Source: Turritopsis dohrnii (Eukaryota; Cnidaria; Hydrozoa; Anthoathecata; Oceaniidae). From it: a stretch of 64,000 nt of DNA. Location of the stretch: positions 310,001-374,000 of the forward strand of contig BQMF02000051.1 of assembly GCA_027922465.2 (NCBI GenBank), given 5' to 3'. This document shows, one piece after another, positions 13,185 through 59,829 of this stretch. The stretch's first letter is position 1, and each line of letters opens with the position of its first letter. The notes under the pieces were generated by a model. That model saw only the letters and a list, made by a program, of their open reading frames with translations. It was not told the DNA's origin and ran no database searches. Position numbers and translations under genes: made by a program.

Positions 13185-14004
13185 CATGGTTAGGAGTGGT
13201 TTTTAGATTTGGAAGAAAATATTTACAGGATTACGTCTGAACGCATCTCTTCTTTATTGTCAACAATCGAATTTGTTTTAAAATGTCCTTACACAACAGC
13301 AAGATCTCTCTCACGCTTAGCAGGAAAATTAGTTTCAACAAAATTTGTGCTTGGTGACATAATAAGATTGAAAACACGTTTTCTATACAAAGTCATTGAT
13401 GCTCAAAGCTCTTGGGACACTCGCCTCAATATTTTGAATTACCCTGAAGCTCACAGAGAGATTTTATTTTGGAGAGACAATATGGTTAACCTTAATAAAA
13501 GAAGTATAAACAATAGCAGCTGTTCAAGTTTAATGATTTTTTCTGATGCTAGTGACTCTGGAATAGGCGCAATTTGCGAAACAAAAGGTTTAGTCTGTCA
13601 TAGATCATTTACGTTACGAGAACAAGGTAAAAGCTCTACGAGGAGAGAATTGGAAGCAATAAGATTTTCTTTGTTGTCATTTGGTGAAAATATCCGAAAT
13701 TCATCTATCAACTGGATGACCGATAACAAAGCAGTCACCTTTATCACGAAAAGCGGAAGCAGAATAAAAAACCTACATGAACTGTCTCTGGAAATATTTA
13801 ATTTGTCTCGATTGTTCAATATTAATCTGGATGTTTGTTGGGCCCCAAGAAACCTTAATAAGTCAGCTGATTATCTCTCCAGAGTGATTGATACCGATGA
13901 TTGGGAACTAACCGATTCATTTTTTAATTATCTTGATGACATGTGGGGTCCGTTTACGATAGATAGATTTGCAAATTATGATAACACTAAGGTTGAGCGT
14001 TTTA

Positions 14005-14975
14005 CAGAAGTTTTTTAGAGTCTCCATAACTCGAACCTCTATTACTCGAATGTCTCCTTCTTTCGAACAAATTCGCTGGCACCTTGAAAATTTCCTAATA
14101 AACTCTCATAAAAAAACCTCTACAACTCGAATCTCCATAACTCGAATATTCCCTTCTTTCGAACGAATTTTCTTGTTCCTTGAAGGTTTTTGTCTCCATA
14201 ACTCGAATTTTCCTGCAGCGTTATGCAAAATTTAGCAAAATTTGAAAGGTTTTACTCATGTTTTGAGTCTTTATCGTTTAAATGTTTAAACATTTACGTG
14301 TGGCGCAGGCCTTACATTATTCGAACGGATGATTCGAATGCTTGAGCCTTTCGAACGCCTATTCGAACGCCTTTTTCGAAGGTCTTTTTTCGGAGTTGAA
14401 GCCTACTCAAAAACATGGCGTCCAAAGCAGGATCAAAACGAAAAATCAAAAATAAATCCTGCACAATCAAATACAATGCCCTCAAAGAGCTGGAAAAAGG
14501 GACTGCTCCAAAGGATGTCGCAGCCAAATTTGAAATTCCATCGAGCACTCTTTCGACGTGGAAGAAGAACAAAGAAAAGATCTTCGCACAGTTCCACACC
14601 GGACTCTTATCAAAAAGAACGAAACCTCAAAAATTTGAAGACATCAGCACAGCTGTCCACAAGTGGCTCCTCGTTATGAGGAGTGAAAACATCCCAATAA
14701 GTGGCACTATTCTAAAGAAAACAGAAAGTGATTACTGATTTCTTTTCTTAGTTGATTATGAAAAAAAACGCAAAAGTACATTAACTTTGACTTTAAACTA
14801 ACCCAAAACCCCCCTATATGCAAGAATACATGATGCATTTACCGTTTTTATTCACCTGGTCCGCAAATAATAAGGGTATTTCGTAAAAACTTGTAAACCT
14901 CTACAACTCGACTGTCTCTATCTTTCGAACGATTTCCTTTTCCCCCTGGTTGTTCGAGTTATGGAGACTCTACTG
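14005..14975 (+). mobile_element. 971-bp Tigger/pogo deletion derivative
   Basis: Begins CAG and ends CTG between TA dinucleotides (14003-14004, 14976-14977). The subterminal GAGTCTCCATAACTCGAAC on the left is inverted at the right end. Further CTCGAAT-type repeats line the left 200 bp. It contains the start of a transposase only (14415-14738). The related 174-bp MITE at 59241-59414 shares these ends. Confidence 0.9.
14415..14738 (+). pseudogene. Tigger/pogo transposase N-terminal DNA-binding fragment
   Basis: 107 residues. A basic start is followed by a CENP-B/psq-type helix-turn-helix (NALKELEKGTAPKDVAAKF, then IPSSTLSTWKK) at about residues 20-50, and the beginning of the second CENP-B-type HTH (VHKWLLVMRSENIPISG) at about 80-100. 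In the family this binds the transposon ends. The DDE catalytic domain is deleted and the frame stops a few codons later, so the product could bind but not cut DNA. Start chosen at the ATG of the MASKAGSKRK peptide. Confidence 0.8.
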
Positions 14976-15302
14976 TAATTCCAAATATCTCGTGCCTGGC
15001 ACAGAAGCAGTCGATGCTTTTACTCAGGATTGGTCTTACGACAACAATTTAATGGTACCGCCAATTAATTTACTCATCAGGACTCTACAGTATATTGAAA
15101 CTTCGAAAGTGAAGGGCGTTCTCATTGTTCCATACTGGCCAGCCTCCCCATTTTGGTCTAAACTTCAAGTCGATGATAGGTTTGTGCATTTTATTGAAGA
15201 CTGGCTCATGTTTTCGAATACTAATGATATTTTGAAGCTCGGTAATTTTAGGGAATCCCTTTTGGGTTCTAAGAATAACAAAGGTGGATTCGTTGCGCTT
15301 AA

Positions 15303-15670
15303 AGGCCGACCTCCACTCAACAAATTTTGTACGCACGGGCGGACGACAATTCAATACGCATGCGTGCAAGCACACGCTGCGAACACATTTCGTTCACAAG
15401 TAAGTAGACTAGTCTACTACCAAGCGACAGCGTACGTTCGCAGAAAATAAATGATGTAATCAAAACAATTAAAACCAATCAAATGCTGCTAAACATTTTA
15501 ACTGTAGTATTGTAGTAGTATTATTTTCTTCTTTTCAGTTTGACAGTCATGTTTGCTATTATTTTTTATCATCTAAGGATTATTTGCAGATATTCAATAT
15601 CCACTCACGCCGGTGCATACACCGGCTTCGTTCGTCCGCGCGTACAATATTTGTTGAGTGGAGGCCGGCC
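15303..15670. mobile_element. 368-bp TTAA-flanked MITE in DIRS
   Basis: TTAA at 15299-15302 and 15671-15674. Inverted ends of about 40 bp: GGCCGACCTCCACTCAACAA on the left, its complement with few changes on the right, extending through GTACGC. The interior has CGTACG/ACTAGTCTAC palindromes and no gene. Skipping it continues the DIRS frame with VALK followed shortly by a stop. Confidence 0.85.
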
Positions 15671-15922
15671 TTAAGATTAGATCTTAATTGCTCGATGATC
15701 AACTGGGTTGATATTTTACCTTAGAACAACTATGTTGTTTGAATAATTTTGTAACAAATGGGCTGTTAGGCTTGCCTTGAGTAAGAGAATTGCTGAAAGA
15801 ATTTTGTGGCGTTATTAATACGATGATAATATTATTGTGGGGTCGTCATGATAGAGGATTATCGTAACTGGGTTACGTTGACAACTCGTAGAACATCTTA
15901 TTATTTTATTTAAAAAAAAAAA

Positions 15923-16947
15923 ATGATTATATGTTTACTTCTAGAATATTCTGCCGATCGTGTTAAAAGTCTTGTTACTGACGTTAATTTAAAGAATCTC
16001 GCGGATGTAATTCCCGACATATTGAGACGATGCAGAGCAGTAAACACGCAACAGAAATGTAATACTTACTTTGAAAAATGGTGCCAATGGGCCAATAACT
16101 TTCCAGAGGTTTCCTGTTTACCTGCTAAATCAGAACACGTCCTCTTGTTTATAGTAAGTTTAATTCAATCCGGAGAATCCTTTAATGTGATCGAAAGTGT
16201 ACAATATGCCGTCAAGCACTACCATAAATTATCTGACGTTGGAGACCCGACAGACACAAACCTATTTAAATACGCTATTGATGCTGCTAAGCGGACATGC
16301 TTCAAACCTCCAAATAAGAAACTTCCACTGACTGCTGATAATATCAAACGAATTTTCGAGAAAATCGGTGGGTACAACGCCAATTTCCTTCAGAAGAGAA
16401 ATTTTACTTTGATGGTACTCAGTTTTGCCGGATTTCTACGTTATGACGAAGTTTCAAATCTGAAGCTTTCTGATGTATCATTCGAGAAGAACTATCTGAA
16501 ATTATTTATCAGACATTCTAAGACGGATCAATTAAATGAAGGTTACTGGATTATCATAGCAGAGACAAAATCATCAACTTGTCCTGTTGCTTTCCTGAAA
16601 GATTACATCGAATGTATGAGTATCAGCAACGAAGAAGAATTCCTGTTTAGAGCTACTAATTACTTTAAATCTACCGATAAGCATGTTCTTATAAAAACGA
16701 ATAAGCCGTTGTCTTACTCTACTGCTAGGTCCGCTGTTTTGAATTTGATTAAAGACATTGGTCTCGACGATAGCCTCTTTGGTTTACATAGTTTAAGGAG
16801 AGGTGGTGCTACCGCAGCTGCGAATAATGGAGTGGCGACAGGCTATTTCAAAAGCACGGGAGACGGGAATCGGTTTCAGTCAAGGAAGGCTACGTGGACG
16901 ATGATCTTAACAGCTTATTATCAGTATCTTCAGATTTAGGTCTTTAG
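15923..16947 (+). pseudogene. DIRS tyrosine recombinase, frameshifted near the C-terminus
   Basis: About 340 residues. The N-terminal SAM-like part includes CNTYFEKWCQWAN. The catalytic part shows the first Arg in GFLRYDEV (~residue 175), the Lys in IRHSKTDQ (~195) and the HSLRRGG box (H-x-x-R, ~292). A shift near 16855 moves the true end to another frame, where HGRRESV and the GYVDDDLNSLLSV segment carrying the Tyr nucleophile lie, ending at TAG 16945-16947. In the uncorrected frame the protein ends at 16939 without the Tyr. Such recombinases integrate the circular DIRS cDNA without a DDE step. Confidence 0.85.
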
Positions 16948-28386: not shown

Positions 28387-29115
28387 TTAATGATATGCTG
28401 CATAGCAGTACGCTGAGTACGTAAAAGAGTACACATCCGTGTACAAAGGAGACATTCCACTTCTGGCAATAACTTCTCCCATAATCGGATGCGAGTCGGG
28501 ACAATACATTTTCACTCTATCCAAATACGCGAGATGTCTTGGAACTCGATGCATTGAGCTATGTTCAACAACTAAACGATGGTTTATAGTTCTAGCTTCC
28601 GCACATTGGTATATGTACCGTCCATATACCAAATGAGTACTCCACTTGGTATCAAGCCTGAAACCAGTTAGCCCATAGTTTTCCGGACAGCGCATGTCCA
28701 ATATCTCATCTCCAAGTTCAGATATACTGTAGATTAAACCATTTGCTGCCATCAGCAACTTCCAATCTGTTATGTGCTCTATTACTTTGTAGCCTTTGTT
28801 GGTATCCGTGCACCAGTATTTATACCGGATCAAGTCTAGAAAATTACATTGAAAACTATCCATTAAAAAAAACAACTAAGATTTCTTACAAGTAGCTATT
28901 GAAAAAATTAATTTCATACCTTCTGAAACTCTTCTTTCGAGTTTTACTTCTTTCAAAATCCAATTCTCATCACATCGAACTGTGTGTCTATCCAGATACT
29001 GGACTTCACCTTCACCAGCCCCTTCATATTGCCAGCCTGTAACTTGCTCACGTGTAGCTGCCATACACGAATAAACCATGGTCATCATGAGCATGGAGAT
29101 TTGAAGAAGCGCCAT
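28387..29115 (-). CDS. Secreted dermatopontin-like protein A (two exons)
   Basis: Exon 1 29115-28920 and exon 2 28835-28387, joined by an 84-bp GT-AG intron (GTATGAAA...TTTTCTAG); phase is kept across the join. About 215 residues. Residues 1-20 are a signal peptide (LLQISMLMMTMVYSCMA). Three modules follow, each starting with a Cys (RCDEN, MRCPENYGLTGF, MYCPDSHPI) and ending in an aromatic-x-x-Cys or Y-x-Y-x-x-C motif (YKYWC, RYIYQC, YSAYC). This matches the paired-Cys repeat layout of dermatopontin-family extracellular-matrix proteins, which bind collagen/proteoglycan. The family is inferred from pattern, not alignment. Intact frame, with a close paralogue at 32649-33367. Confidence 0.75.
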
Positions 29116-29480
29116 CTTTATACAACAGCTTTTGTGGTTAGAATGACAACACGAGCGTCTAAAATCGGAGTGGTATCGTTTGTAACAATGTGGAAGTTCA
29201 TTTATGAAACGAAACTCAGATTGGTCATTTTGTGGATATTTAGTACAAATTCTCCTTAATTTGATTTCATGTCGCTATCGATTTCCAGCGATATTAGAAA
29301 AATTATGTTTCGCAAGTAAACATTAAGTTGACTTCAGCAACGAAACTTTGATGTGGTCCCCCTGCTATATGACAAACGAAACGAAATATGGGCATACCTC
29401 TCAACTTTCCTTAAGTAAACGATGATTGAATGTCTTATGGTAAAGTCAGTATTTATTCTAACTGCTCCTAATCTAATTAA
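29116..29480. promoter_or_regulatory. Upstream region of gene A, duplicated at gene B
   Basis: The 125 bp upstream of the start codon are almost identical to 33368-33492 (AATGACAACACGAGCGTC / AATGACAATACGAGCGTC). A further matching block, GATGATTGAATGTCTTATGG (29421), corresponds to 34062. The promoter therefore duplicated with the gene. No TATA box is obvious. Confidence 0.6.
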
Positions 29481-32648: not shown

Positions 32649-33367
32649 TCAATAGGCTGCATGGCATTGTACTCTGTACGTAAAAGCGTAAACATCCTCG
32701 TTCCAAGGAGACATTCTACTTATAGCCTCAACTACCGCCATAATCGGATGCGAGTCGGGACAATACATTTTCACTCTATCCAAATACGCGAGATGTCTTG
32801 GAACTCTGTGCATCGAGCTAAATTGTATAACGAAGTCGTAGTGCACAGTTCTAGCTTTAGCGCATTGGTATATGTACCGTCCATATACATAATGGGAATG
32901 CCACTTGGTATCGAGCCTGAAACCAGTTAGCCCATAGTTTTCCGGACAGCGCATGTCCAATATTTCATCTCCAAGTTCAGATATACTGTATAATAAACCT
33001 GAAGATATCATCAACAACTTCCAATCTGTTATCTTCTCCTTTACGTCGTAGCCTTTGTTGGTATCTGTGCACCAAAATTTGTATCGGACCAGGTCTACAA
33101 ATGGCAAAGAAAAATATCCATAAAAAAAGTAATCTTTCAAACAAAAATGTGACATGCGTTTATTTACGTACCATCTGAAGCTCTTCTTTCGAGTTTCACT
33201 TCTTTCAAAATCCAATTCTCATCACATCGAACTGTGTGTCTATCCAGATACTGGACTTCACCTTCACCAGCCCCTTCATATTGCCAGCCTGTAACTTGCT
33301 CACGTGTAGCTGCCATACACGAATAAACCATGGTCATCATGAGCATGGAGATTTGAAGAAGCGCCAT
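32649..33367 (-). CDS. Secreted dermatopontin-like protein B (two exons)
   Basis: Exon 1 33367-33172 and exon 2 33094-32649, with a 77-bp GT-AG intron (GTACGTAA...TTTGTAG) at the same codon as in gene A. About 215 residues. The signal peptide and first ~60 residues are nearly identical to A. Exon 2 has the same three Cys modules (YKFWC, MRCPENYGLTGF ... YIYQC, MYCPDSHPI ... YRVQC), with many substitutions between them, such as in the stretch after the second module. The near-identity of exon 1 against a diverged exon 2 suggests gene conversion or selection on exon 2. Intact frame; tandem paralogue in the same orientation. Confidence 0.75.
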
Positions 33368-34130
33368 CCTTATACAACAACTTGTGTGGTTAGAATGACA
33401 ATACGAGCGTCTAAAATCGGAGTGGTATCGTTTGTAACAATGTGGAAGTTCATTTATGAAACAATACTCAGATTGGTCATTTAGTGGATATTTGAAGAAA
33501 AGCCATCCTTAACCTCTTTAATACTTCGAATAGCGATATAGACCTATTAAATCAAAGAAAACTTCCAATTTATAAGAAGCAAAACGCAGATTGATCGGGA
33601 AGGAGGTAATGACAACCGAGAATCGTATCTCGTCTTCACATGAAAAGGCAATGTATTAAAATTGACACTGTCCTTTAATCGTTTGTAGCTTGTTATTACT
33701 TTTATATTGCTCAAGCCATTCAGAAATCATCACTGAGTGTTCACTGGTACATCCGTCGTTTTTCCTCTCACAACAATCCTCATTGACAGCTTGCAAGAAA
33801 TATTATCCATAAGTGTGTAATTCACACAGCTCTCTACACACTTTTCGTTTGTAACTAGTCATTTTAAAGTAGAATTTCCACTATCTCAATAAATCGGAAC
33901 AGCAAAGAAATATATTTGTCCACGCACTTAAACGTTTTTAGTCAAGTGATTCGGAAGATTTTGTCAGTTTTTTTTAAAGTCCCAATCCGTTGATGTATCC
34001 TCTCCCTCTGCTATATGAAAAACAAATTGTGGCCATACCCTTTAGCTTTGCTTGAATAGACGATGATTGAATGTCTTTTGCTAAAGGCAGTTTTTATTAT
34101 ATCCTTTCACTATCTGATTTTATTAAGACA
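33368..34130. promoter_or_regulatory. Upstream region of gene B
   Basis: First 125 bp nearly identical to the region upstream of gene A; the rest is diverged, with an extra ~500 bp relative to A before the GATGATTGAATGTCTTTTGC block at 34062. Confidence 0.5.
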
Positions 34131-44773: not shown

Positions 44774-47379
44774 TTATTTTTTTTTGTTCCTTACACGACA
44801 TGGCACAGTCTCAACATCAAACTGAACAAAGGGGTCATCATTTCGGCAATTCCCAGCAATAGGTCGAAATAATTTGGATGTCCTTATTGTGATGTCATTA
44901 AAACCGAAGTCTCTAATGGAGGGGTTATCCTTACGACGAGCAATTGATCTTTGCTGTCCAAAGTAGTTTTCAAGAGGGTCTTGACAAAATCTTTCTGTAA
45001 ATACATAAGGTACTCCTTGTGCTAAAAGATACTTTACAAGTTCAACTACTGCTTGTACAGTCAACATGATACCCTCATGAGTTTTCCAAGAAATAAACAT
45101 ATTTGCTCTGGCATTATCAGTAAATTGGCCACCATTTTTAGCAGCAATAGAAGCTTTCCAATCTGAAAAGAAGGCAAGAAATGCTTCGGTTAACCATGTG
45201 AAGCGCTTATCATGAAGGTCTTTGTATGGTGTTAAAAATGGCTTAAAAATGGCAAATGCAATCCATACTCTAAGTCATCATGGAAAAGTTTAGAAATGTG
45301 GTACCATGTAAGATAAAGGCCATTATTATTAATTAATATTTATACAGGTTGACTTCGTCAGTAAATATGTACATATATACAAAATATATACAAAATACTG
45401 TTATAAATGAAGGACCTGTTATTATTATTATTATTATTATTCCACATGCTACGAGTACCTCGACCTGAAAGTGAGTTATATAAACAATTACGTGCAGTTT
45501 TGATTAAGTGTGAAGGATCTGCAATGAAATATATGTATTTCTCCTCATCAGCCATAATGTTCAGAGTACGATATACAACATCAACATTGGGGTTCCAATC
45601 TTCAACACTATTCATGTGTAGATCCATTCGATACATGGAACGGTTTGGAGAAGCACCATCACTACTCACACCAACAACTCTTATGCCAACATTATCTTCT
45701 AAAATACCAACAGCTTTCCAAAATAATGTAAACAGCTGAATTGAAGTAGCATTAGTAGTAGCAAAATTGGCCAAAGAGAATTTTAAGGGATTGACTATAT
45801 TTCGGACAAGAAAAACCAGAACATGTGAAGCAATTGTGTCTGGCTTTTTTATTGTAGCGTAATTCAAGTCCTTGTCACCTAAATCGACAAAACCAATGAG
45901 ATCACCACTATGCTCGTCCCTCACCAAGTTTTCTTGAATGTTCATTGCATCCATGAGAATGATGCCATATTTCTCAATTGTTTGAAATTTTGAAACTATG
46001 TTAGATAGTTCTTTGATGACATCACTGTTGAAACCTTGTTGTAGATGAATATAGTTTTTGTAGTCACACAAGCGTCGACGACTAGGTAATATCAAAAATC
46101 CACTCCGACTTTTTTCGTCATACCGAATGTCATCATATGTTGCAGGTGACTTACCAGCCAAAGCAAGACAATAGCGGATAATCATGGGATGGTAGCGGAC
46201 ACCTTTCCTTGATGAATCAATGTACTTTTGCTGCTCCTCCCAAAACATTTTCATGAATGGAGGAACTTTGCTTTTATCTGCACCTGACATGATTGTGATT
46301 AGATCTTGTCCAAGATTTTCTGATATTGACAAAGAACTAGCTTTGATTTCTGCACGCATTGTTTCCAGTTGTTCATGCAATTGCTTGTTTTCAATTCTAA
46401 GACCCTGTAGTGTAAGTCTGATTCGCTCTGGTGATGTTAATGTGATAGGAGCTTTGGGTTTGGCAGGAACAGATAAATTATTCCTTTTTCTTTTCAAACT
46501 GCGTTCTTCCTTTTTCTCCACAGTTACACATTCATGACATCTATCTTGTTCTTTAGTTATCAACAAAGAACAATTGGTTGGTTGATACCACTTGGTTTGA
46601 AAAACTGGTGAAGAAGAATTATTATGTATTGAGAATATTCCTGGAACTGCATGCTCTAGACAACTTCCAGAGAGCTCCTCAGAAAGCCCAGGACATAATT
46701 TATATGTTGCAATCATAGAGCATAGATTTGATAAAGTTACATTCTTTACAGAATACTCACAATCTTTATAAATGTCATGCTTTTGTGGGAGGCTCCACAA
46801 CAAACAACGAACAGTAAACTTGAGAGTCTCACCAACATATACTTCATACTTAGGAACAGCATGAATCTGATCTTGTGAAAAGAAAGACATACAATTTGTT
46901 GAAGAAGATGATTGCCAACCATTCAATTTTAATAAGCTAACACGGTTTTTAAAATCATCAAATGATTTGTAGCAGGCAGTGACTTTGTCTGTTACTGAAT
47001 TAGAGATAGCCAATTCTCTCTTTTGTTGGGTTGAGACAGATGAATCACGTGGTCTGGTAATTGTGTTAGTGGATTCATGACTTTTCTTAGGTAGATTTAG
47101 TGTAGGTATAACCCCTGGATTTAATGTGGCTTTGGTGTCATGACGAAAGTATTGATCTTCTGTAAAGTGACGTTGGCATATGTACAAATTTCCTTTTTCA
47201 ATTTGAGAGCGAAGAGTAGAATCAATAACACGATCTCTCGTTATTACTGCCACTAATTTCTCTCTCCAATTCTTGTCAAAATCGCTTTTCCCAGATGGAA
47301 TTTTAAACAGTGATATACCCCTACATTCAGATCGACGTGAGCCTGGACAGCCGTATATGGAACAATTAGCACCAGGCAT
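44774..47379 (-). pseudogene. THAP-domain P-like transposase
   Basis: Main frame 47379-45421. THAP zinc finger at residues 1-95 (Cys6, Cys11, later CQRH, final GVIPTLNLP). Leucine-zipper-like coil at about 320-350 (TLQGLRIENKQLHEQLETM). RNase H-fold part with catalytic Asp candidates in GIILMDAMNIQEN (~476) and GVSSDGASPN (~574). HLIKTARN follows. After a 76-bp insertion and a shift, the protein continues with LYLTWYHISKLF, then 44774-45100 with FCQDPLENYFGQQR, which holds the likely catalytic Glu. THAP9/P transposases bind subterminal DNA with the THAP finger and cut with these acids. Breaks near 45350 and 45255 make this copy inactive as read. Confidence 0.85.
45344..45419. mobile_element. 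Tiny insertion in the THAP transposase
   Basis: 76 bp bounded by ACAGGT and ACCTGT inside an (ATT)n run, breaking the transposase at the Asn-coding repeat after TRSMW. The transposase resumes beyond it, so it is an insertion, probably of a very short MITE or by repeat slippage. Confidence 0.45.
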
Positions 47380-47740
47380 GCTTTAAAACAACTTAAATTA
47401 CGAAATATGATAAGAATACAGATAAACAATCGCCGTTTACATAAGAACTTCCTTAGATACATCCAGAAAATGATGCACTATAAAAACTGGGCTCGAGCTT
47501 TCATTTTGTGACAAACGGATGAACAATAGATGAATCAAAGTCTCCAGACTTTTTTTCCTATGACTATGTTTAAACTAAACCAGGTGAAAATCTATCAGCT
47601 TTTGGGTATATATTATAAAAATTTGACTGATCCACTGATACATTTAAATGGATAATGTATTCTAGGCTTTTCCACTTAACACTTTGATTACATGGTAGGT
47701 TTTGCTGTGCTTTCTTTTGCTCTTACTTGTCAGCCATTTT

Positions 47741-47774
47741 GTTTTTGTTTTTGTTTTTGTTTTTGTTTTTGTTT

Positions 47775-47813
<39 letters not shown>

Positions 47814-47827
47814 TTGTTTTTGTTTTT
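47741..47827. repeat. Compound microsatellite (GTTTTT)n(GTT)n
   Basis: Pure tract of GTTTTT units, then GTT units, then GTTTTT again. An open frame across it is a by-product of low complexity. Confidence 0.95.
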
Positions 47828-49030
47828 ACTTGTCAGGCATTTTGTTTTGAGTATGTTCCTAAGTTAGATAATAGTTTTTTTACAAATTCCATATCAAAAA
47901 CTCCGCGTTTACATGTAATTTCGTTATCGCAATGATGTTTCTGAAACTTATACAGTCGAGTCCCACTATCTGAACATCTACTAGCTCGTACTGTTGTTTG
48001 AGTAGAAAAGCTACTTTTTTGTCCGTTGCAACAATTTTCACATAGCATTTTGTTTTCTTATCATTTTTTCACTTTTATAGCTTAATTTGGAGGTGCGTAT
48101 CTTTTAGCGGTATGGTTGATATGACTATTGGAAAATATCCATTTAGTCCAATATAGCTCCTAATTATTACGCACACAACAAACTATCCTAAAAATCTAGG
48201 AAGCTAATAAAACAGAAAAAAGTATCTAAGAAGTCACAATTGTCCCAGGGAATCAGAAGACGACAAATTTTCTTCTCTTACGGAAAAATGTTCGGTTTGT
48301 CATTTTTATTCATGAAAACGCGATCTTTAATGCAAAGTAGCATGAACATCCTGAAGTTGGATCTAAAATATGAAAACGCGAGGTTTAAGGCTCAATAATT
48401 GCTATTGTAGGGTTTTGTTCATTTTGTTCACAAAATGAATTCAACGACTGTACGAATGTAAAAATGTACCTGATGCATACCTATGTGTATTAATGTCCAA
48501 GTTATTGAGAAAAATAAGTGTTAGCGTCGTTTACAACATATTACCAGTACCTTATGAAAAAGTGTGTTTGCTGGAGGGACAGAAAATGTTGTCGATTACC
48601 TTGGAAATCGGGCACCACATCATCTGCACTGCACTAAAGCAAAGATTTTCTTGTCAAAGGGTATTTTCTACAATTTGATAACTTTTTGAAGGCTTAAACC
48701 AGACTTTCCGAAAGAACGCAAGAGGCTCGTTCTGTCGGTGGTGTTAAAACTAAATTCACGGATTTGCGTTATGGTGAAATTTCATTTGAATTCATTCTCC
48801 TCCGTTTCTCTGCTTTAACATTTCCTTCAGAACGTTTATTGTTGACACAGATCAGCCCTAGGGAGAATGAAATAATTAGCTACTTATCCTTTTTCTTCTT
48901 GCCTCTGTTGAGTTCTATTTGTACAGTGTGTCTCAGAATGTTTTATCCACAAACTTTCAATGCGCTTTTTTCAAAAATTATATGTCAAATGTTTGCGATT
49001 TATGTACCATTTGAAAGCTCTTTTCAAACT
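47828..49030. other. No gene recognised
   Basis: AT-rich DNA. Overlapping frames near 48764-49108 run into the element at 49037 and show no domain. Confidence 0.5.
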
Positions 49031-49036
49031 CTTTCC

Positions 49037-49392
49037 TACGGTGGCCCCTATCTGCCACATACTTACATCACATCATATTCATGTGTGGTGCAAAAACGTT
49101 ATTCGTAAATTAGACGCGCGTGCCGTGTGTAGTAAACATACCGCCATCACACCACTCCAGGGGAATGTGTAAACTGCCACATAGAATCGCACCTTCGTGC
49201 AAAATTCAAGATAGCAACGTTCTTTCGTGCAAATTGCAAGATAGAGATGTTCTACCGTGCAAATTGCGAGATAGAGTTGTTCTTCCGTGCAAATTGCGAG
49301 ATAGAGGTGTTCTACCGTGCAAATTGCGAGATAGAAACGCTCTTTCGTGCAAATTGCAAGATAGAGACGTTCTACCGTGCAAATTGCATAAT
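49037..49392 (+). repeat. Left TIR, outer part with 30-bp minisatellite
   Basis: Unique terminal 150 bp followed by about seven copies of a 30-bp unit (AGATAGAGATGTTCTACCGT plus GCAAATTGCA). Complement of 56090-56295. Confidence 0.9.
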
Positions 49393-50432
49393 CACCTCTA
49401 TATATTCATGAAAAGTACACATCAATGGGCTTACATACCCAATTAAAAAAGGTAAAACTAAACTTTTTGCTTCTGCATTAAAACGAGACAACGGTGATTT
49501 TGAATAAGGATTCGTCACGTAAGATCACACAACAATCTATTGCAGTATCGTTGGCGTGACGTCAGTTATTTTATGATCACTGGGAAATCATTACATTGCA
49601 TCCCCAATCGAACGCGACGTTTTTGGGGAAATATCTCAAGAACCAATAGGGATAACTGACGTTTTTTAGGGTCTGCGATACGGATGACGGGGTGACGCAA
49701 TATTTGGGCCTAAATTTTATTTGGTACTGCGGCTATGACGTCATCAAAATCTTTGAACTGCGATATCTCTGCAACGGTTGATCGTAGCGAAACGATCTCA
49801 TACATTCTTTTGATCAGGTTTTCAAGCTCTACAACATGGGCAATTCTTTGCCAATTCTTCATGCTGAACATGGGTGGCGAGCGACGCCGCCTTGGCGGCT
49901 ACCTATATATAAAAATTCGCGTTGTGTGCAACACATTTAACTTAGAGAGTGTTTGTTTTTATGCTTTTTAACGGTCAAAATCTTCTTCATCGTGGTCATA
50001 TAGCGGCGGTTAGACCACGCAAGACACATTCACGATTAGTATAATAGCACGTGGCATCATTTGACGTCAGATGTTTTATGATCACGGGGAATCATTGCAT
50101 TGCATCCCCAATCGAACGCGACGTTTTTGGGGAAATATCTCGAGAACCAATAGGGATAACTGACGTTTTTTAGGGTCCGCGATACGGGTGGTGGGGTGAC
50201 GCATCATTTGGGCCTAAATTTTATTTGGTACTGCAGATATGACGTCATTAAAACCTTTGATCGACGATATCTCCGCAACGGTTGGTCGTAGCGAAACGAT
50301 CCAATACATTTTTTTGCTCAGTTTTTCAAGCTCAACAACATGGGTAAACTTTCTATATACGATTCCATGGTTTTATTTTTCGTCAACTATTTTCGACACA
50401 ACCTTTTCGAAATTAAAGCTGTAAAAAACTTT
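49393..50432 (+). mobile_element. Helitron pair inserted in the left TIR
   Basis: Two joined copies in the opposite orientation to the arrays at 4-7 and 17-20 kb. Landmarks GCATCCCCAATCGAACGCGA (49600 and 50105), GACGTCA, GCCGCCTTGGCGGC hairpin (49888) and CACGATTAGTATAATA (50032). The outer ends are eroded (CTATATATTC near 49399; AAAAAACTTTTACT at 50432). The minisatellite continues on both sides. Confidence 0.8.
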
Positions 50433-50890
50433 TACTCCGTGCAAATTGCAAGATAGAAACGCTCTTTCGTGCAAATTGCAAGATAGCATCGTTCTACCGT
50501 GCAAATTGCAAGATAGAGACGTTCTACCGTGCAAATTGCAAGATAGAAACGTTCTACCGTGCAAATTGCAAGATAGAGATGTTCTACCGTGCAAATTGCA
50601 TAATAGAGATGTTCTACCGTGCAAATTGCAAGATGGAAACGCTCTTTCGTGCAAATTGCAAGATAGAGATGTTCTACCGTGCAAATTGCAAGATAGAAAC
50701 GCTCTTTCGTGCAAATTGCAAGATAGAGATGTTCTACCGTGAAAATTGCGAGATAGAGATGTTCTACCGTGCAAATTGCAAGATGGAAACGCTCTTTCGT
50801 GCAAATTGCAAGATAGAGATGTTCTACCGTGCAAATTGCAACATAAAAACGCTCTTTCGTGCAAATTGCGAGATAAAGACCGTCGTGGAA
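50433..50890 (+). repeat. Left TIR, inner minisatellite
   Basis: About 15 copies of the same 30-bp unit, in the same direction as 49185-49392. With the outer part it gives a left TIR of ~0.81 kb, equal to the right TIR. Frames of 90-160 residues on both strands exist because 30 is a multiple of three; they are not genes. Confidence 0.9.
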
Positions 50891-51653
50891 GGATTTTTCT
50901 GGTTTGATATATTTCAAGGTCTTTTAATCATTAATGACAGGTATGGTCTGGCTAAAGTAGCTTTTTGTGAATTGTGAGTTTTCCAATTACTTCTTCAGGA
51001 ATTTATTTCACAAAAAAGACTAAAATGGGTGAAATCCTTAAAACTTTAATTCCCCGAAAGAACTAATTTCTTTATGAACTTTCCTACATTCCTTTAAGGC
51101 TGGAGTCTATCGAACCTTTATTCCTACCGTCAAATGATTAGAAAATTTTTCCAATAAAATAAGGCGATGCGATTTTCATTTGCACTTTACTTACTTACTC
51201 ACTTACTTACTAACATCGCAATAGGATAAAAGACTATTTTGAGATCGGAGAAACCCCACCGCCTACGTTATTGTTAACACCCGATGGCGAGCGTTTGAAG
51301 CTTTTACCTGTAGGATTCTGAACACAATAGGTTTGATAAGAAAAAGGGAAATATATTCAAGTACCAAAATATACCATAATGATGTTCAAGTTATACAGGT
51401 AAATTGGAGTGCTGATTTGGTAAGCACACATAAAAATGCCTGCTGAAAATGTTTAATCTTCAGTACCAAAATGGATTTTTTTACTTATTCACTGGAGTCT
51501 AAAATGGTAGAAATGTTCCATCAAGATTTTCTTAAGATGAAAGCATTCAAAAATTAATTGATCCCCTCTCCTATGAAATATACAAAAGTATTAGAAGCTC
51601 GGGTAACATTAAACACTATCAGCAGTTAAGTCAATCATTCTACAGACTTTACA
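50891..51653. other. Spacer between left TIR and integrase gene
   Basis: No gene seen; presumably 3' flank of the integrase. Confidence 0.5.
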
Positions 51654-52466
51654 TTAAATCAATCGTATTAAATTTAGAAGTTCTTTATATAAAGATAAGG
51701 CTTCACTTGCATTTTCAGGCGAAGCAAGTCTATTTTCTTGCATTAAAATTACGGCAAGCTCAAAGAAATCACGGCTGCAAATGAAATCTTCCATCCTGGA
51801 ATTACAGCACAACTGATGAATAATTTCAATATCATTAACATTGATTGCAGTTTTATAGTCCCCTATAGTTGAATTAGGAGTAAAATACAAGACATTTGGC
51901 CTTCCAGCTGGTCTGATTTCAGCATCAGAATTAGTAGAAAGATGGATTCGATGACAGTTCCATGTTGTTTTAATTTGATCAAGTTCATTTCTGATTATGG
52001 GAGCATGTGTAAATCTCATACACTCTAAATGAATATAATCCGTGATATCAAAATGGCCTTGTGAAATTAGGTCTTGAAAATAGTTTATCCACCAGTTCGT
52101 ACAAGTCCTTCGAAGGGTTGACCACCATGCCTCTATTCGTTGATTGGATACCGACCTCCCATATGTGAAACTTTTTTCGCCAGCACTTGCATCCGTACCA
52201 TTTCTTCTAAGAAAACGTTGGCTTGCAGCTAAGTACACATTCTCTGTCCCTCTGTCTGCAACAATCTTTCTAGGAAATCCTGCTATATCATGACAAGTTT
52301 CAATGAAAAAGTCGCAAACATTTCGTGGATCCTTGTTTGATCTTGTTAACTTCAACCACATTATCCTCCTACTATAACCATCTATTGCACCATGGATGTT
52401 GAATCCATAAAAACTACAATCAATATGTAAGTTACAAAAACCAAATACTAAGGAAAGAAAAAAAAA
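51654..52466 (-). CDS. DDE integrase (rve-like), N-terminal exons not found
   Basis: From a TTGATTGTAG acceptor (about 52417) the frame reads FYGFNIHGAIDGYSRR (first Asp), then FPRKIVADRGTEN (second Asp, 41 residues later), then SVSNQRIEAWWSTLRR (Glu, 40 residues after that). This D-D-E spacing and the IHGAIDGYSR / TDxGTEN / RIExxW motifs fit a family of integrase-core proteins common in repetitive DNA of fishes and invertebrates. A further ~150 residues end at a TGA or TAA at 51654, with no stop or shift inside. Such an enzyme would cut and join the element ends, giving short fixed duplications. Upstream exons (usually a Zn-binding N-terminus) were not recognised. Runs in the same direction as the HECT-like gene. 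Confidence 0.75.
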   Translation of the reverse strand, partial: FFFLSLVFGFCNLHIDCSFYGFNIHGAIDGYSRRIMWLKLTRSNKDPRNVCDFFIETCHDIAGFPRKIVADRGTENVYLAASQRFLRRNGTDASAGEKSFTYGRSVSNQRIEAWWSTLRRTCTNWWINYFQDLISQGHFDITDYIHLECMRFTHAPIIRNELDQIKTTWNCHRIHLSTNSDAEIRPAGRPNVLYFTPNSTIGDYKTAINVNDIEIIHQLCCNSRMEDFICSRDFFELAVILMQENRLASPENASEALSLYKELLNLIRLI

Positions 52467-52871
52467 GGTCATTATGTCCAGTATCTGAACACCAATTAAA
52501 AATCTCACTGATTAATGTCCTTTAAAACAAAAATTCAGAAGCAAAATACAAAGCCAATATACTGCTTGCTAAACTACTGAAAATTTAAAATATTAAAAGA
52601 ACTAAAATATATCAATGAACAAACGTAAACCAAAAGTATAACTAAGTAAATATTTTCCAAAACAATAAGTAAAATAGAAGTAAAGAACACATCTTTAGGC
52701 TTGGTTTTCATTAAATTTCCTTTGAACATATTTGGAAATATTAAGAACATAAAAAATTAACAAAACATTTCAAAAGGTCCTTTAGAGAGATAAACAAGTA
52801 ATAACAGAAAACTGTTTTATAACATAACATCAATAACGATTTCCAATCTTTCCACAACTTTCAGTAAGGGC

Positions 52872-55436
52872 TTAACCATCATGCATTTGCCAAAGAAGAG
52901 CAGAATCATTTTGTATCCAACGGTTGAGATTATTCCGCAATTGAGAAAAAGATGAGTACTGTCGTGGAAGATGAAGGATACCAAAGCAGGTTTCAGACAC
53001 TGGTCTCAAATAATCAGTGGGTTGATTAACATATAGCACTTTGATTTTGCTTCTAGGCATAGATGTAGATGCAGTAACATATCGAACAAGTGTTGTGAGT
53101 TCTTTTGCACTACAGCATCGAATATACCTATGAAACCAAGTAGTAATTTTTTGTTCATGGTTACTATTTTCTTCAGTAATAATGTTCTTGATCAGTCGTT
53201 CACTTGTTGGAATTGTTTCACTGTATACTTGATCAAAAAACAACATCCCTATACGTTTGAAAAACTCCATTCCCTTCACAATTTCCTGGAGTTGAAAGCA
53301 GGGGGTTTGAATTAGACAAATACGAGCTGCTTTGAGACAAAGATGATTAATGTTATGTTGATTTGGATTTTCAAATAAACGGAATTCAGCAAGAATGTCA
53401 ATACAGGCTTGTTGAGCTGCAGCAGATTGGCCATCATATTGCTCCAAGATATGTGCTTCTTTTTCTGGAAGATGCTTGAAAAAGGAAACTAAAAGCTCAT
53501 CATCAGTTACATCTCCAAATATATAATACTTTAAAGCAGCATGTGAAATCTGAGTGGGAAACATTTCAAATAACAGGAAAGCATGAGTTATTATTTTTCC
53601 AATCAAATCCATATTTGTTTCAGTGAAGGTAGGTACAAATTCACGGCTACCCTCCCATCTTTTGCCCAATTCATCAAAGAAATGTGACAATGCATCTTTC
53701 ACGACACCATCTCCTACAGCATCTTCGTTATCAAAAGCCAGAACTATACGTTGGTATTTGTATGCTTCTGTTTTCATATAAAATTGCAACACAGAGTCAA
53801 ATATCTCCTCACGAATAACAATACCGTTAACACTATCATCTTTTAAGGAATTTAAGGCATCTTTCCTCAGTTCCTGAAGAGATTTTTTCAGTAGTTAGTT
53901 CTGTCGCTTCCACAAAACCATAACCCTGAAAAGCCACAGTTCCACTTGGTGATAAAAGTAATGGACTTCTGATTTCACACATATTGTATACCCCAGCTTC
54001 CACTTTGTGGCTTGGTGACACTGGCACTCGTTCAGCAAAAGTTTTCTGGGTGAACAGAAAGACTGCCAACCCAATCATAAACTGCTGACATTACGGAAGA
54101 AGGTTTAAAAAATCTGGTTTGCATTCTAAGGTTAGGATGACGTACGGCAATGACAACATGGTCATCTTCAAGAGAAACTTCTGGCTCCACTCTTTCGAGG
54201 CGTGCTTTACGTAACTGCTCCAGCCGATCTCGCTCTTTGTCCTCTTCCAATCTTTGAAGATCCTTCTCAATATCCATTCTTAAAGATTCTTGGAATTCTC
54301 GATCTTGATTATTTACAAGTTCTCTTCTCTCCTCTAAGTTCCCAAAGGTATCTTCAGAGATGTCAAAGACAGTAACTGGTTGATTAAGTGCTGTAACAGT
54401 TTAGGGAGGAATTGAAGGAATTTCCTGAAAATGTGTTGGTGAAACTCTTTGTGGAGTAGATACTGTTTGCCAAGGAATAGGCAAACTGAAGTCGTCGTCA
54501 TCTTCATCATCTGACTCAAAAACTTTGGTAAGATTCTGATAGGCTGTTTTAGGTTTTGTTCTAAAATAAATCCTTGGCCTTGCCATTTTATGATAATTGC
54601 AATAACTTCCAAGAGTAAATGGAACATCATTTCCACTTTCATCTCTGATAACATCACCAATGATGTCATGTTTGAAATTAGCCAACATGAAATGACTATC
54701 ACTGAAATATTTTTTGCTTCTTTCATCCCAAAAGTATTTTGAGCAGAGTGCCATGATATCACTTTTAGTAGCATCCACAGACAACTTGACTTGTTTAGAT
54801 CCACCACCTCTGTCTGATTTCACTAAACACCATTTTTGTTTTTTAATATCATAATTTTCCCAACTTAAGTATAGAGTTTTCATTTTTGGTTCTTTTGATG
54901 TGGGTGACAATCTTTTATTAGATCGTAAAGCGCTCTTAAGTTGTATTTTTCTCTCCGAAAAGTCATCAGATCTGCAAAACACCTTTAACCGGATAATATC
55001 TCCATCAGCTACAAGACCATTCTTTCTCATTACAGAATCTTCTGCATTGATGATAGCTTCAGCATCCAACTAAGGGAACATCAAATAGACTTTGAAAAGG
55101 TATGGGTCAAGGTACCTTTTAAATATTTAACTCTATAAACATGGATAAAGTATATAATACCTTTTCACGTTCAAAATTCTCTATAACTTCAAGAGAGCAA
55201 TTTAAAGATTTCAAGAATGAGACAACCTAAAAACATAAATGTTGCATAATAAATATTTAATTTTAATTTTTGTTTTGGAAATTCTGCTATCTTGAGCATT
55301 ATTTCTTTTTACGAAGCACATATGATGAATAAACATCTATAAAGAATCTTATCTCATGTTTCATATTCTGGATGAAAAGAACACACGAACTTTTCTCTGA
55401 AATATAGTTTGCTTACCTTCTCCATGTTCGCCATCT
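52872..55436 (-). pseudogene. SAM/HECT-type E3 ubiquitin ligase-like gene of the element
   Basis: Exon 1 MANMEK (55436-55419, donor GTAAGC); exon 2 55226-55161 (FLKSLNCSLEVIENFEREK); exon 3 from 55069, continuing the SAM-like fold (ADGDIIRLKVF). Then a lysine-rich and GGGSKQVKLSV region, acidic DDEDDDD, a charged coil (LQRLEEDKERDRLEQLRKA, ~54200) and a UBX-like segment (AVRHPNLRMQTRFF, VYDWVGSLSVHPENF). The HECT-like part (52872-53792) has GDGVVKDALSHFFDELG, FVPTFTETN and the catalytic-type ETCFGILHLPRQY near the end. HECT ligases carry ubiquitin on that Cys. One in-frame TAA (~54402) and shifts near 54035 and 53880 break the frame; introns could explain some. The first exon lies at the inner TIR edge. 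Confidence 0.7.
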
Positions 55437-55509
55437 TTACCCGCGATTTTTGATGTGTCTTGACAATTTCATTGGCTGAAAATATGAAACTTTGATCATG
55501 TGACAATCG
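55437..55509 (-). promoter_or_regulatory. 5' region of the HECT-like gene at the TIR edge
   Basis: A short unique stretch between the minisatellite TIR and the ATG at 55436. By position it is the 5' UTR/promoter-proximal DNA; no TATA box is seen. Confidence 0.35.
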
Positions 55510-56295
55510 ATCGTGCAGAGAGCATCGGAATTTGCACGGTAGAACGTTTCTATCTAATAATTTGCACGCTGGAACATTTCTATTTCGCAATTTGCACGGT
55601 AGAACGATGCTATCTTGCAATTTGCACGAAAGAGCGTTTCTATCTTGCAATTTGCACGGTAGAACATCTCTATCTTGCAATTTGCACGAAAGAGCGTTTC
55701 TATCTTGCAATTTGCACGGAAGAACATTTCTATCTCGCAATTTGCACGGTAGAACGATGCTATCTCGCAATTTGCACGGCAGAACATCTCTATCTCGCAA
55801 TTTGCACGGTAGAACATCTCTATTATGCAATTTGCACGGTAGAACGTCTCTATCTTGCAATTTGCACAGTAGAACATCTCTATCTTGCAATTTGCACAAA
55901 AGAGCGTTTCTATCATGCAATTTGCACGGTAGAACATGTCTATCTCGCAATTTGCACAGTAGAACATCTCTATCATGCAATTTGCACGAAAGAGCGTTTC
56001 TATCATGCAATTTGCACGGTAGAACATGTCTATCTCGCAATTTGCACGGCAGAACATCTCTATCTCGCAATTTGCACGGTAGAACATCTCTATCTTGCAA
56101 TTTGCACGGTAGAACGTTGCTATCTTGAATTTTGCACGAAGGAGCGATTCTATGTGGCAGTTTACACATTCCCCTGGAGTGGTGTGATGGCGGTATGTTT
56201 ACTACACGGCACACGCGTCCAATTTACGAATAACGTTTTTGCACCACACGTGAATATGATGTAATGCAAGTATGTGGCAGATAGGGGCCACCGTA
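55510..56295 (-). repeat. Right TIR with 30-bp minisatellite
   Basis: About twenty copies of the complement of the 49185 unit (TTTGCACGGTAGAACATCTC plus TATCTTGCAA), then the unique 150-bp end. Units vary mainly at the tenth to twelfth base. Long frames on both strands (up to 286 codons) are by-products. Confidence 0.9.
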
Positions 56296-56525
56296 CTTTC
56301 CCAAAATATAAGATTTGAAGCAAAATGATAATTCGTCCGAAAGTTATTGAGGAAAATATCATGGTTTCAGATCATTAATTTGTTAAAGATCAATTAACGC
56401 TTGTAACAATACAACAAGTTTACAAACACAATAAGGCGATCATAAACTCAAAATTAAAAAAAAACAATTGCTTTTACAGTCGAAGCTCTAATTAGCGGAC
56501 ACCATCGGGGATTCGACTTGGTGTA

Positions 56526-57132
56526 CTGCCAGTAAATTTCGCAATCGCCAGTAAATGTCGCAAAATTGCCAGTAAGTGTCGTAACTAGAATTTTCATTCG
56601 TTTTAATTTTTTTTAACAATAAATGTCGTAATGATTTTCAATATCAACAGCAAATGTTGCAAACTTACACAAAGTGATTTTGATCATATAATGTGGAGTG
56701 TATGAAAAGGAAAGACCTGTTGCTTAAATCAGTCGGTCAGGACTCAATCTTGAAGCATAGAGTAACTAGTAGTATTAGCGCAAAAAGTAAAAGTAACTTG
56801 CTATGTGAAACATAATGTTGAAAATTATAGCTGTCTTATTTTTATATTTTTCAATCTCTGTGACATGTCGTGTAGTTCCATCAGCGCACTGTGCGATGAG
56901 TAGTACGACATCTTGATCAGAATAATCAGTGTCGAGTTCAAAACAAAGATGGAAAAGATATTGGTTAGAAATCGAAGTTATAAAATTGCGACATTTACTG
57001 TTGATTTTTAATTTTTTTGCGACATTTACTGTTGCGACACTTACTGGCGATTTTGCGACACTTACTGGCAATTTTGCTTTATTTACTGGCAATTTTGCGA
57101 CATTTACTGGCGATTGCGACATTTACTGGCAG
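56526..57132. mobile_element. 607-bp MITE built of CGACATTTACTGGCAATTTTG repeats
   Basis: CTGCCAGTAAAT at the left and ATTTACTGGCAG at the right, TA at 56524-56525 and 57133-57134. Both flanks inside are short tandem repeats of GCCAGTAAATGTCGCAAA in inverted orientation (three on the left, about five on the right). The frames across it are repeat by-products. Confidence 0.85.
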
Positions 57133-57390
57133 TACAGGTGTCCGCTAACTGGAGCTGTCCGCCTTTTGTAACGTAATATAAGCTCTAAATTCGATTGTAA
57201 GCCCTTCTAAGGTGTCGTAAAGGTAAATTTCATGTCTACAGTAGGTTAGCTATAGGAAGACAAAGAAAGACAAATGAAAAGGTTATTTTAAACGCTACTA
57301 TTATTTTTTTACAAGAAAAAAAAATCTCAACAATAATATGAACGATTGAATATCAAGATCACAATGCTAACGTAACAGCATTCGAAACTT

Positions 57391-57845
57391 TCATTTAAAA
57401 AAATGTTCAATTGTTTTTTGTTTTTTATTGTTTACTCGTATGGTTTCCAGTCCCTCTTTTATTGAGTAAAGAGAAGATCTCTCATCACTATTGAGATCCT
57501 TCATATTAATCAACTTTTCAATGATGACCAGAGCCTCATATGGAGTGGTTTCCTCGGGCTCAACTTCTTCGACCTCATCCTCACTTTCCTCGTCAGTTAC
57601 CACTTCTTCGATTTCTTCGGCTCCAGATTCCTTCGGTAAATATTCCGTAACACACTTTTGTAAAGAGCTTACTTTCCAACCCACTTCATCTGAGTTGATA
57701 TGGAGAACTGAGGTACACGTTTCGATATCAAAGTCGACGTACTCCTCAGAGGTCATTGCTCATCATCGAGGGCCGAATCTTCATCTTCACAGGATTTCTT
57801 ATCAAACCCACATTTACTAAAACAGTTATTGTTTTTGTTGTCACC
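57391..57845 (-). pseudogene. Tigger transposase C-terminal tail with PIP-box-like end
   Basis: NNCFSKCGFDKK, the conserved end of the Tigger catalytic domain, is followed by an acidic stretch; a shift near 57757 leads into MTSEEYVDFDIET, then EEVVTDEESEDEVEEVEPEE, a helical segment (YEALVIIEKLINMKDL) and the last residues KQKTIEHFFK. QKTIEHFF fits the PCNA-interacting consensus Q-x-x-I-x-x-F-F; a PCNA-binding motif at the C-terminus is known for pogo transposase. Only the tail is left, so no activity is expected. Confidence 0.7.
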
Positions 57846-57860
57846 TCGTCTCAAGCTTAG

Positions 57861-58836
57861 GCTACCCATTCAATGGCTTGTAAAACATCGACTCAATTTC
57901 TGAAGCGAAAAAATCATCTTCAATACGAGCAATGACAAATCGCATCAACTATTTCCGATAATTACATTTAAAACCAACCAGTCTATTTGAACACACAAGG
58001 TCTCGAGATTCCAGGTTATTGATGAAATAGCAGGTCTGAATGAACCGGATTGTATTGCATACCACATCTATTATCTGTTAGTGAGGCGATTGGCGATTGG
58101 ATTGGCGATTATACAACTTCATTTTCATTATATTGGTTGCTGATGTTTGAATCGATGGACGTATGTCGAATTTTGTACGCTTATGGAAGCAGTAAATGAA
58201 GAAAACATGTCTATTAGATGTATATGTGAGGTCCATTATTTATTACGGCACTTCTTAATATCTATTGTAAAATGTTTCACGCATGCGCTAGTCGTTGCTT
58301 GGAGTAGAGAACCTTCTTCTAATACGTGAATCTTCTTAAATGTTTCACATGTAGTTTGAAAAATCATATCAGCTGCATTGTTTAAAATATGAAAAAAAAT
58401 CAATTTTCGAAAAAGAATGACAGGGTTCAAAACAAACATGAATTGAAAGACCTTTAAATGATAGTTTTGGTGATAAACACTGCCAATGGCAAAGTTAATG
58501 ATGATAAATGTACAGATTTTTCCTGAGTTTATTTGAATAGTTTAATTTGCCTTCTGTGTGAAAGTGAAGAAATTAATGAGAAATGTCATAATCGCAAAAT
58601 CTGTTTTCTTTCTTTTTTTCTTGATTCTGCTATTTTCTGATGCTTTCATTCCTTTCGTTCCTATTTGAAATCTAATTTCTTTAGTATTAACATTATCCAC
58701 AGTTGTAAGAATGTTGTCACTTCGAATAACTCGATTTTTGATAGTTATGTACCTTCATAGAAAAAAAGGTTTTTAACGTTGATCAGGGTGGAACCTTCAG
58801 CGAAGAATTTCATAGTTGTTTTTTGTAGTAGACTAC
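57861..58836. other. No gene recognised
   Basis: AT-rich DNA; short frames only. Confidence 0.5.
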
Positions 58837-58947: not shown

Positions 58948-59798
58948 ATCGAAGGAGCAAATACAGTAACAGATAAGCAAGAAAAACAGAAATCGCCAAA
59001 ATTTCTGATTCCACAGAAGTAACAGCCGCTCATTCATTTGACTTGAATCAAGTTCCCGCTCCTTTTCCTTTAGCAACCAACCAATTCTGTAAAAATTTGC
59101 TAATGTCAGAATGGTGAAACCAATGTAGAGGATGATAGTGACAAATTAAGAGCTGATTTCGCTAAAGAAGCGAATGGAAAATAATGGTATTGGAAGAATC
59201 CAAGGCAAAACCAATGAAAGAAATTTAGTTTTTGTTATTACAGTGGACTCTCTATATTTCGACTTTCCATTACTCGAACTCTCCATAATTCGAACTGAAT
59301 GAGTGGGTCCCTTCAAGCTAAAACCTAGCGATATCACTCTCTTTATCTCGAACTCTCCATAATTCGAACGATTTTGTTTTCCCCTTCGCGGTTCGAGTTA
59401 CAGAGAGTCTACTGTATGTTTTTGTTTGTCTGCCAATGCACAATGTGTAAATACCGATCGTATGATATGACTGTGAGAATCGCTGCGGAAATACAGTACA
59501 GTATGGTTATCGATTTTTGAATGGTTCTCATCAAACAATCTGTTGCAACAGCTACCTGAACAATGTCAACAGGCACAAGCAAAACTCCAACAAGAAGATC
59601 TGCTACGGATAATGAGATTAAATGGATGTTCGTGCCTCTTCGCAATCTCCTGGTTCGTATGAATGGATAGAGTACGACCGTGTTCAACAAAATTACAGGA
59701 AAACCAGCAATACCATAAGAGATTGCCATTGCCAATCCAATTTGCCGGGGAACATTCAAAAGCACGTGATAACAATTCGAATGCGTTGTGGAATTCAT
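58948..59798 (-). pseudogene. Class A (rhodopsin-family) GPCR pseudogene
   Basis: TM1 (AISYGIAGFPVILLNTVVLY), intracellular loop 1 (FIRTRRLRRGTNIH), TM2 (LISLSVADLLVGVLLVPVDI), TM3 with Cys and the DRY box (YDRYLHIVH, ~residue 118). After the TA-flanked MITE at 59241-59414 the frame continues with TM4 (FLSLVLPWILPIPLF), a TAA at ~59146, TM5 (FVTIILYIGFTILTL), loop 3 (KEKEREL) and part of TM6. TM7 is missing. The MITE is skipped in frame over one TA. Ligand unknown. The start ATG at 59798 gives a 20-residue extracellular tail. Confidence 0.8.
59241..59414. mobile_element. 174-bp pogo/Tigger MITE in the GPCR
   Basis: CAGTGGACTCTC / GAGAGTCTACTG ends between TA dinucleotides (59239-59240, 59415-59416), with CTCTCCATAATTCGAAC repeats inside. 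Same family of ends as 14005-14975. Confidence 0.9.
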
Positions 59799-59829
59799 GA
59801 TTGCGTCTGGTTGTGGTTGTTTGTTTTAG

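Follow-up and report, generated by a model that had tools for sequence, protein, structure and literature searches.

Elements of the IS3EU superfamily have been described as having TA..TA ends and, usually, 6-bp target-site duplications (PMC10045372, in the sections available). In fungi, the accessible part of one account describes TET-carrying IS3EU elements with TAYGG..CCRTA ends and an alpha-kinase gene placed opposite to the transposase, and its author proposes that the TET genes provide an escape from methylation-based silencing (PMC12730594). Here we describe an element from the cnidarian Turritopsis dohrnii that pairs an integrase gene with a gene for a HECT-type ubiquitin ligase. It spans positions 49037-56295 (7259 bp) of a 64,000-nucleotide stretch of contig BQMF02000051.1 (forward strand, positions 310,001 to 374,000), hereafter the window. 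Judging from sequence comparison, we consider it very probable (about 0.82) that this is a degenerate copy of an IS3EU element of which the HECT ligase is an integral and probably working gene. Three families, and several independent sites, show an integrase gene and a HECT gene enclosed by inverted ends with duplications.

In its ends, its duplication and its integrase core, the element agrees with the IS3EU superfamily. The core is of the rva_4/rve DDE type with no HHCC before it, the ends follow TAYGG..CCRTA (TACGGTGGCC at both ends), and the duplications are of 6 bp in six of the seven elements found to carry both genes between such ends (7 bp in the seventh, C209) as well as in one copy of a further family, C829. 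Ginger1 and Ginger2 elements, which have 4-bp duplications and ends of the TGT..ACA type, are ruled out by the 6-bp duplication and the TA..TA ends. With IS3EU and GingerRoot elements, as far as the available parts of the sources describe them, the element shares an integrase-type DDE transposase that lacks HHCC, its TA..TA ends and the 6-bp duplication that is usual there. The fungal IS3EU elements (PMC12730594, in part) also place a second enzyme gene opposite the transposase, as is the case in 64 of the 66 gene pairs described below, but the partner there is an alpha-kinase or a TET/JBP dioxygenase, whereas here it is a HECT ligase. Styx of Zymoseptoria is likewise presented, in the part of the source available, as an IS3EU-related element with extra coding sequences (PMC10853768). 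The words HECT and ubiquitin are absent from the main texts of PMC10045372 and PMC12730594 and from the text of PMC10853768, and no description of an IS3EU-HECT pair was found in the literature searched, which included PMC9926710 and PMC8195603, partly in excerpt, and did not extend to Repbase or to the original GingerRoot paper.

The inverted ends of the window element begin TACGGTGGCC, and over the 20 bp compared, those at 49037 and 56295 are the same in inverted orientation (TACGGTGGCCCCTATCTGCC); within 47001-58000 this was the single pair of ends that our script's criteria recovered. An exact CTTTCC duplication flanks them on the left (49031..49036) and on the right (56296..56301), so that the inverted ends and 6-bp duplication proposed in an earlier, sequence-only reading of the window are borne out. 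Arrays of a 30-bp unit form both arms (6.4 + 14.6 copies on the left, 20.3 on the right). The left terminal inverted repeat (plus strand) consists of an outer part, TACGGTGGCCCCTATCTGCC followed by 30-bp subrepeats (49037..49388), and an inner part of about 14.6 copies of the unit (50437..50880), and the right one (55529..56295, minus strand) of about 20 copies and the terminal sequence. What splits the left arm is a foreign dispersed repeat with two units of about 260 bp (49389..50430), which is not in the closest related copy of the element. An 864-bp left-arm query gave 69 matches, including itself, in the 436-Mb genome from which the window comes and in which all copies were sought (40 of 4396 candidates scored), and the 68 non-self matches start at query position 345 at the least, at or near the start of the foreign repeat. 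Several of these 68 sites hold more than one unit of the foreign repeat, of which the query covered the first half.

The closest relative of the window element is a 6442-bp copy at C6:1841956-1848397 (locus L069), which has the same 20 bp at both of its ends, its own duplication (TCATTC) and open frames for an integrase of 388 aa and a HECT main exon of 736 aa. As two sites with two different duplications hold one gene pair, the pair has moved as a unit. A second IS3EU-like end (TACGGTGGCCCATTAGTGCC) lies at position 1843 of L069, 113 bp outside the C6 element, and perhaps reflects an insertion into or next to a related element. The window copy is, by its sequence, inactive, because its HECT frame contains a stop and two frame changes and its integrase has lost the N-terminal third.

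Genome-wide, the end pattern TACGGTGGCCNNNANCTGCC gave 69 matches (0 for the backward control), which resolve into 26 facing pairs less than 15 kb apart and 17 single ends. Seven of the facing pairs contain an integrase match (C6, C51, which is the window copy, C128, C209, C306, C334 and C341), and a HECT match is present in all seven. Exact 6-bp duplications were read at six of these and one of 7 bp (AACAAGG) at C209, in agreement with the earlier proposal that the ligase gene belongs to the element. The remaining 19 pairs, 1.4-5.5 kb long, have neither gene among the matches listed (in the two-query lists and, by eye, the Pfam lists), and their end variants differ (CATAACTGCC, CACAACTGCC), as expected of non-autonomous relatives. 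Neither gene is among the matches listed for 14 of the 17 single ends; C493 and C597, which have a pair-bearing end variant, show an integrase match with no HECT match listed within 12 kb, and C296 shows a HECT match nearby with no integrase match listed. Copies that share the ends and lack the HECT gene, which the sequence-only reading regarded as a sign of chance capture or nesting, are absent among the integrase-bearing pairs but may be represented by the single ends C493 and C597. In a separate family, C829 (L071 975-7453), the ends are of a related type, the duplication is TCTTTG and the two genes are convergent. In all, eight elements from three families were read as far as their duplications. 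For four more copies of the C829 family, ends predicted at a fixed offset showed the end motif in three of eight stretches.

For the proximity statistics, the integrase query yielded 150 scored matches of 1406 first-look candidates, and the HECT query 120 matches from 119 scored of 352 candidates. A HECT match lies within 5 kb of 66 of the 150 integrase matches (71 within 10 kb), compared with 0-1 of 150 within 5 kb when positions were shifted by 50-200 kb, and an integrase lies within 5 kb of 69 of the 120 HECT matches. Pairing falls with distance from the window integrase, as the numbers of integrases with HECT within 5 kb, by rank in groups of 30, are 27, 13, 13, 10 and 3. The usual arrangement of the two genes is convergent (64 of 66 pairs), and the window family departs from it, the two same-strand pairs being those of the window and C6. 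Among 103 Pfam HECT matches outside the first list, 15 have a listed integrase no more than 5 kb away; ordinary HECT genes of the host are probably among the others. Another type of HECT gene was seen with another rva_4 type at G000 C185:276825-281143, C439:77780, C559:111784 and C47:565463, at a near-constant spacing of 546-548 bp which suggests a second HECT-bearing lineage.

The identification of the integrase was confirmed by a profile search that matched Pfam rva_4 (PF24764) at E 3.9e-27 for the window and 1.9e-34 for the C6 copy. The window gene (51654..52406, minus strand) represents the 3' two thirds of an IS3EU-type integrase, with the second Asp and the Glu kept, and is without the N-terminal third and the first catalytic Asp because about 656 bp of the C6 sister copy, including the integrase start, are absent from the window at 52407-52409. 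A spliced window integrase, with an intron ahead of FYGFNIHG, was rejected as an explanation, since the sister copy is one uninterrupted open reading frame (ORF) and it is the window that lacks this sequence. The D-41-D-40-E spacing first reported for the gene has to be corrected, because it starts from the wrong Asp (D147 of the sister protein): an alignment of 11 integrase sequences places the first invariant Asp in HxDGYDKLKP and gives a spacing of D-58-D-40-E, with D130 (in this motif), D189 and E230 of the sister protein matching an IS3-type core. D147 is also invariant, but lies C-terminal to the usual first Asp, and the choice of D130 follows what we take to be the layout of retroviral-type integrases. 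By inspection, HHCC spacing is not present in the 388-aa sister integrase; HTH_21 gave a weak Pfam match under the cut-off (E 0.042), and no solved structure matched the integrase profile at E 0.01. Integrase relatives named among the best 120 of 508 come from Clytia, Montipora, Acropora, Desmophyllum and Actinostola, in keeping with a cnidarian host, and none in viral contigs was confirmed for either the integrase or the HECT protein. A hint that the two genes may be linked in other species as well is that one integrase relative and one HECT relative lie on contigs of equal length (749193), which we do not take as proof.

The HECT gene extends over 52872-55434 on the minus strand, the same strand as the integrase, and its structure as predicted from frames and splice signals agrees with the co-oriented, multi-exon gene of the earlier reading. 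A first coding exon (MANMEK; 55417..55434, read from the sequence) adjoins the right inverted repeat and is followed by a second exon with part of a SAM-like segment (55161..55226), both segments recurring in C6, and by one long exon. The latter is made up of an N-terminal and UBX-like part (53891..55069), which has an unbroken frame in the C6 copy, and the HECT domain ORF (52872..53894), with the catalytic Cys codon at 52986-52988 (TCF). In the window the gene is interrupted by a TAG at 54401-54403 and by frame changes near 54040 and 53890. The assignment of the TCF motif to a HECT-type catalytic site held up: the 52872-53894 ORF matches Pfam HECT above the cut-off (E 6.1e-13), the N- and C-lobes of the HECT fold are present with the catalytic Cys in TCF near the C-terminus, this Cys is invariant in nine aligned relatives (of 11 found), and the motif is kept in 20 of 22 HECT ORFs. 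The N-terminal assignments are less certain. The SAM-like start is marginal, with a SAM_2 match of 15.6 bits (E 0.019) against a cut-off of 20.5, and the ubiquitin-like segment falls below the UBX cut-off of 21 both in the window (17.1 bits, E 0.0063) and in the C6 copy (18.9 bits, E 0.0018), although a profile built from relatives does match the UBX region of FAF1 (E 7.2e-6). A distant relative of the gene occurs in Stylophora and is itself without a HECT match. The protein shares the HECT fold and the catalytic TCF motif with the HECT E3 ligases UBR5, HUWE1, AREL1 and NEDD4, to which it is 9-15% identical in structural alignments, and unlike them it is transposon-borne and has a SAM/UBX-like N-terminus. 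A gene of the G2E3 type, which combines PHD fingers with HECT, was rejected, there being no PHD match at E 0.1 in the HECT-gene ORFs of C6, C209 and C829 or in P0121 and P0122.

Judging by what is known of the family, the transposase would bind the terminal and the 30-bp subterminal repeats and move the whole unit, with the ligase as a true accessory factor. Recurrent pairing, long open frames and the kept catalytic Cys favour a working ligase, and the HECT frames look selectively constrained in the one well-diverged pair measured, where the ratio of nonsynonymous to synonymous substitution rates (dN/dS) is 0.18. We tentatively suggest, by analogy, that the ligase may ubiquitinate a protein of the host, one that restricts transposition or repairs the resulting breaks. 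Tuning of the transposase itself is less likely than such a host target, taking the TET genes carried by the fungal elements as a guide. It is also conceivable, at somewhat less than even odds, that many animal IS3EU elements are two-gene machines in which a selectively maintained HECT ligase acts on host repair, silencing or import proteins and so permits transposition; the element-encoded HECT might then, with equal reserve, be seen as the ubiquitin counterpart of the TET dioxygenases of fungal IS3EU elements.

Several observations weigh against an integral, working ligase. Between very young copies dN/dS is near or above 1 (C320/C6b 1.19; C442/C185 0.87). At the level of families, integrase and HECT distances correlate with an r of 0.12 over six representatives, with 190 of 720 permutations as high, and the r of 0.95 obtained with 11 elements reflects near-identical copies among them; long co-descent, with both genes diverging together between families, is therefore unsupported. 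In a separate Pfam rva_4 list (150 matches of 1677 candidates, none overlapping the first list) a HECT match lies within 5 kb of 14 of the 150, so that HECT marks part of the rva_4 population and not all of it, and the view that it regularly belongs to all rva_4 elements is unsupported. No listed integrase lies within 10 kb of 46 of the 120 HECT matches, although direct comparison found integrase remnants at two of these sites (C83, C514); to this extent the HECT gene may also occur outside the ends, which the sequence-only reading would have read as chance capture or nesting had it been the main situation. The C209 protein scores 23.1 bits for Pfam HECT, just under the cut-off of 23.9, and the structure model of the C-lobe around the catalytic Cys is of low confidence. 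Finally, C829 and C598 have flanks in common and some copies may be haplotype duplicates; the further copies of the C829 family were for this reason not taken as independent insertions, but the proximity counts still include them, and as near-identical copies may include haplotypes these counts are not all independent events.

Among the alternatives, the one that survives best is that the ligase regulates the transposase, through its turnover or assembly, and not host factors. Frequent pairing and the co-orientation in the window family would fit such a two-component machine, but the genome has many rva_4 integrases for which no HECT neighbour was detected, and we regard this explanation as unlikely. 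Still less probable is that an ancestral IS3EU element once captured a host HECT gene which its copies have since carried as a passenger without a role. Gene capture by transposons is common, and the many rva_4 matches without a detected HECT neighbour and the uncorrelated family-level distances would agree with a passenger, whereas the long HECT frames open in many copies, the retention of the catalytic motif, the low dN/dS of the diverged pair, the conserved convergent order and the presence of HECT genes next to integrases that are for the most part about 40-50% identical to the query all argue against it. Chance nesting, with an integrase element inserting into or next to an independent repetitive HECT gene, could draw on the HECT matches without a listed integrase but is extremely improbable and is rejected by the complete co-occurrence in integrase-bearing end pairs, the shifted control and the independent sites each with its own duplication.

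Elsewhere in the window, 45358-47382 (minus strand) encodes a THAP domain and a TNP-like RNase H domain and has consecutive Asn codons close to its end; we take it to be a P-element-like transposase. At 13194-16939 (plus strand) an RNase H-like reverse-transcriptase remnant (E 1.1e-4, under the cut-off) precedes an ORF for a tyrosine recombinase (Phage_integrase, E 1.8e-8), presumably in the arrangement of a DIRS-like retroelement or one related to it. A fragment of a rhodopsin-family 7TM receptor lies at 59409-59825 (minus strand; E 3.9e-15). Two similar pairs of ORFs about 4 kb apart (28387-29274 and 32649-33508, minus strand) look like a tandem gene duplication, and the two of these ORFs that were searched (28387-28875 and 32649-33218) had no Pfam match at E 0.01.

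To our knowledge, few transposons are known with enzymes able to rewire host protein turnover. If the HECT ligase works in these IS3EU elements, the proteins that it modifies would lead to host factors by which transposition is limited or enabled, and some of the repeated HECT genes in such genomes would be transposon genes and not expansions of the host ubiquitin pathway.

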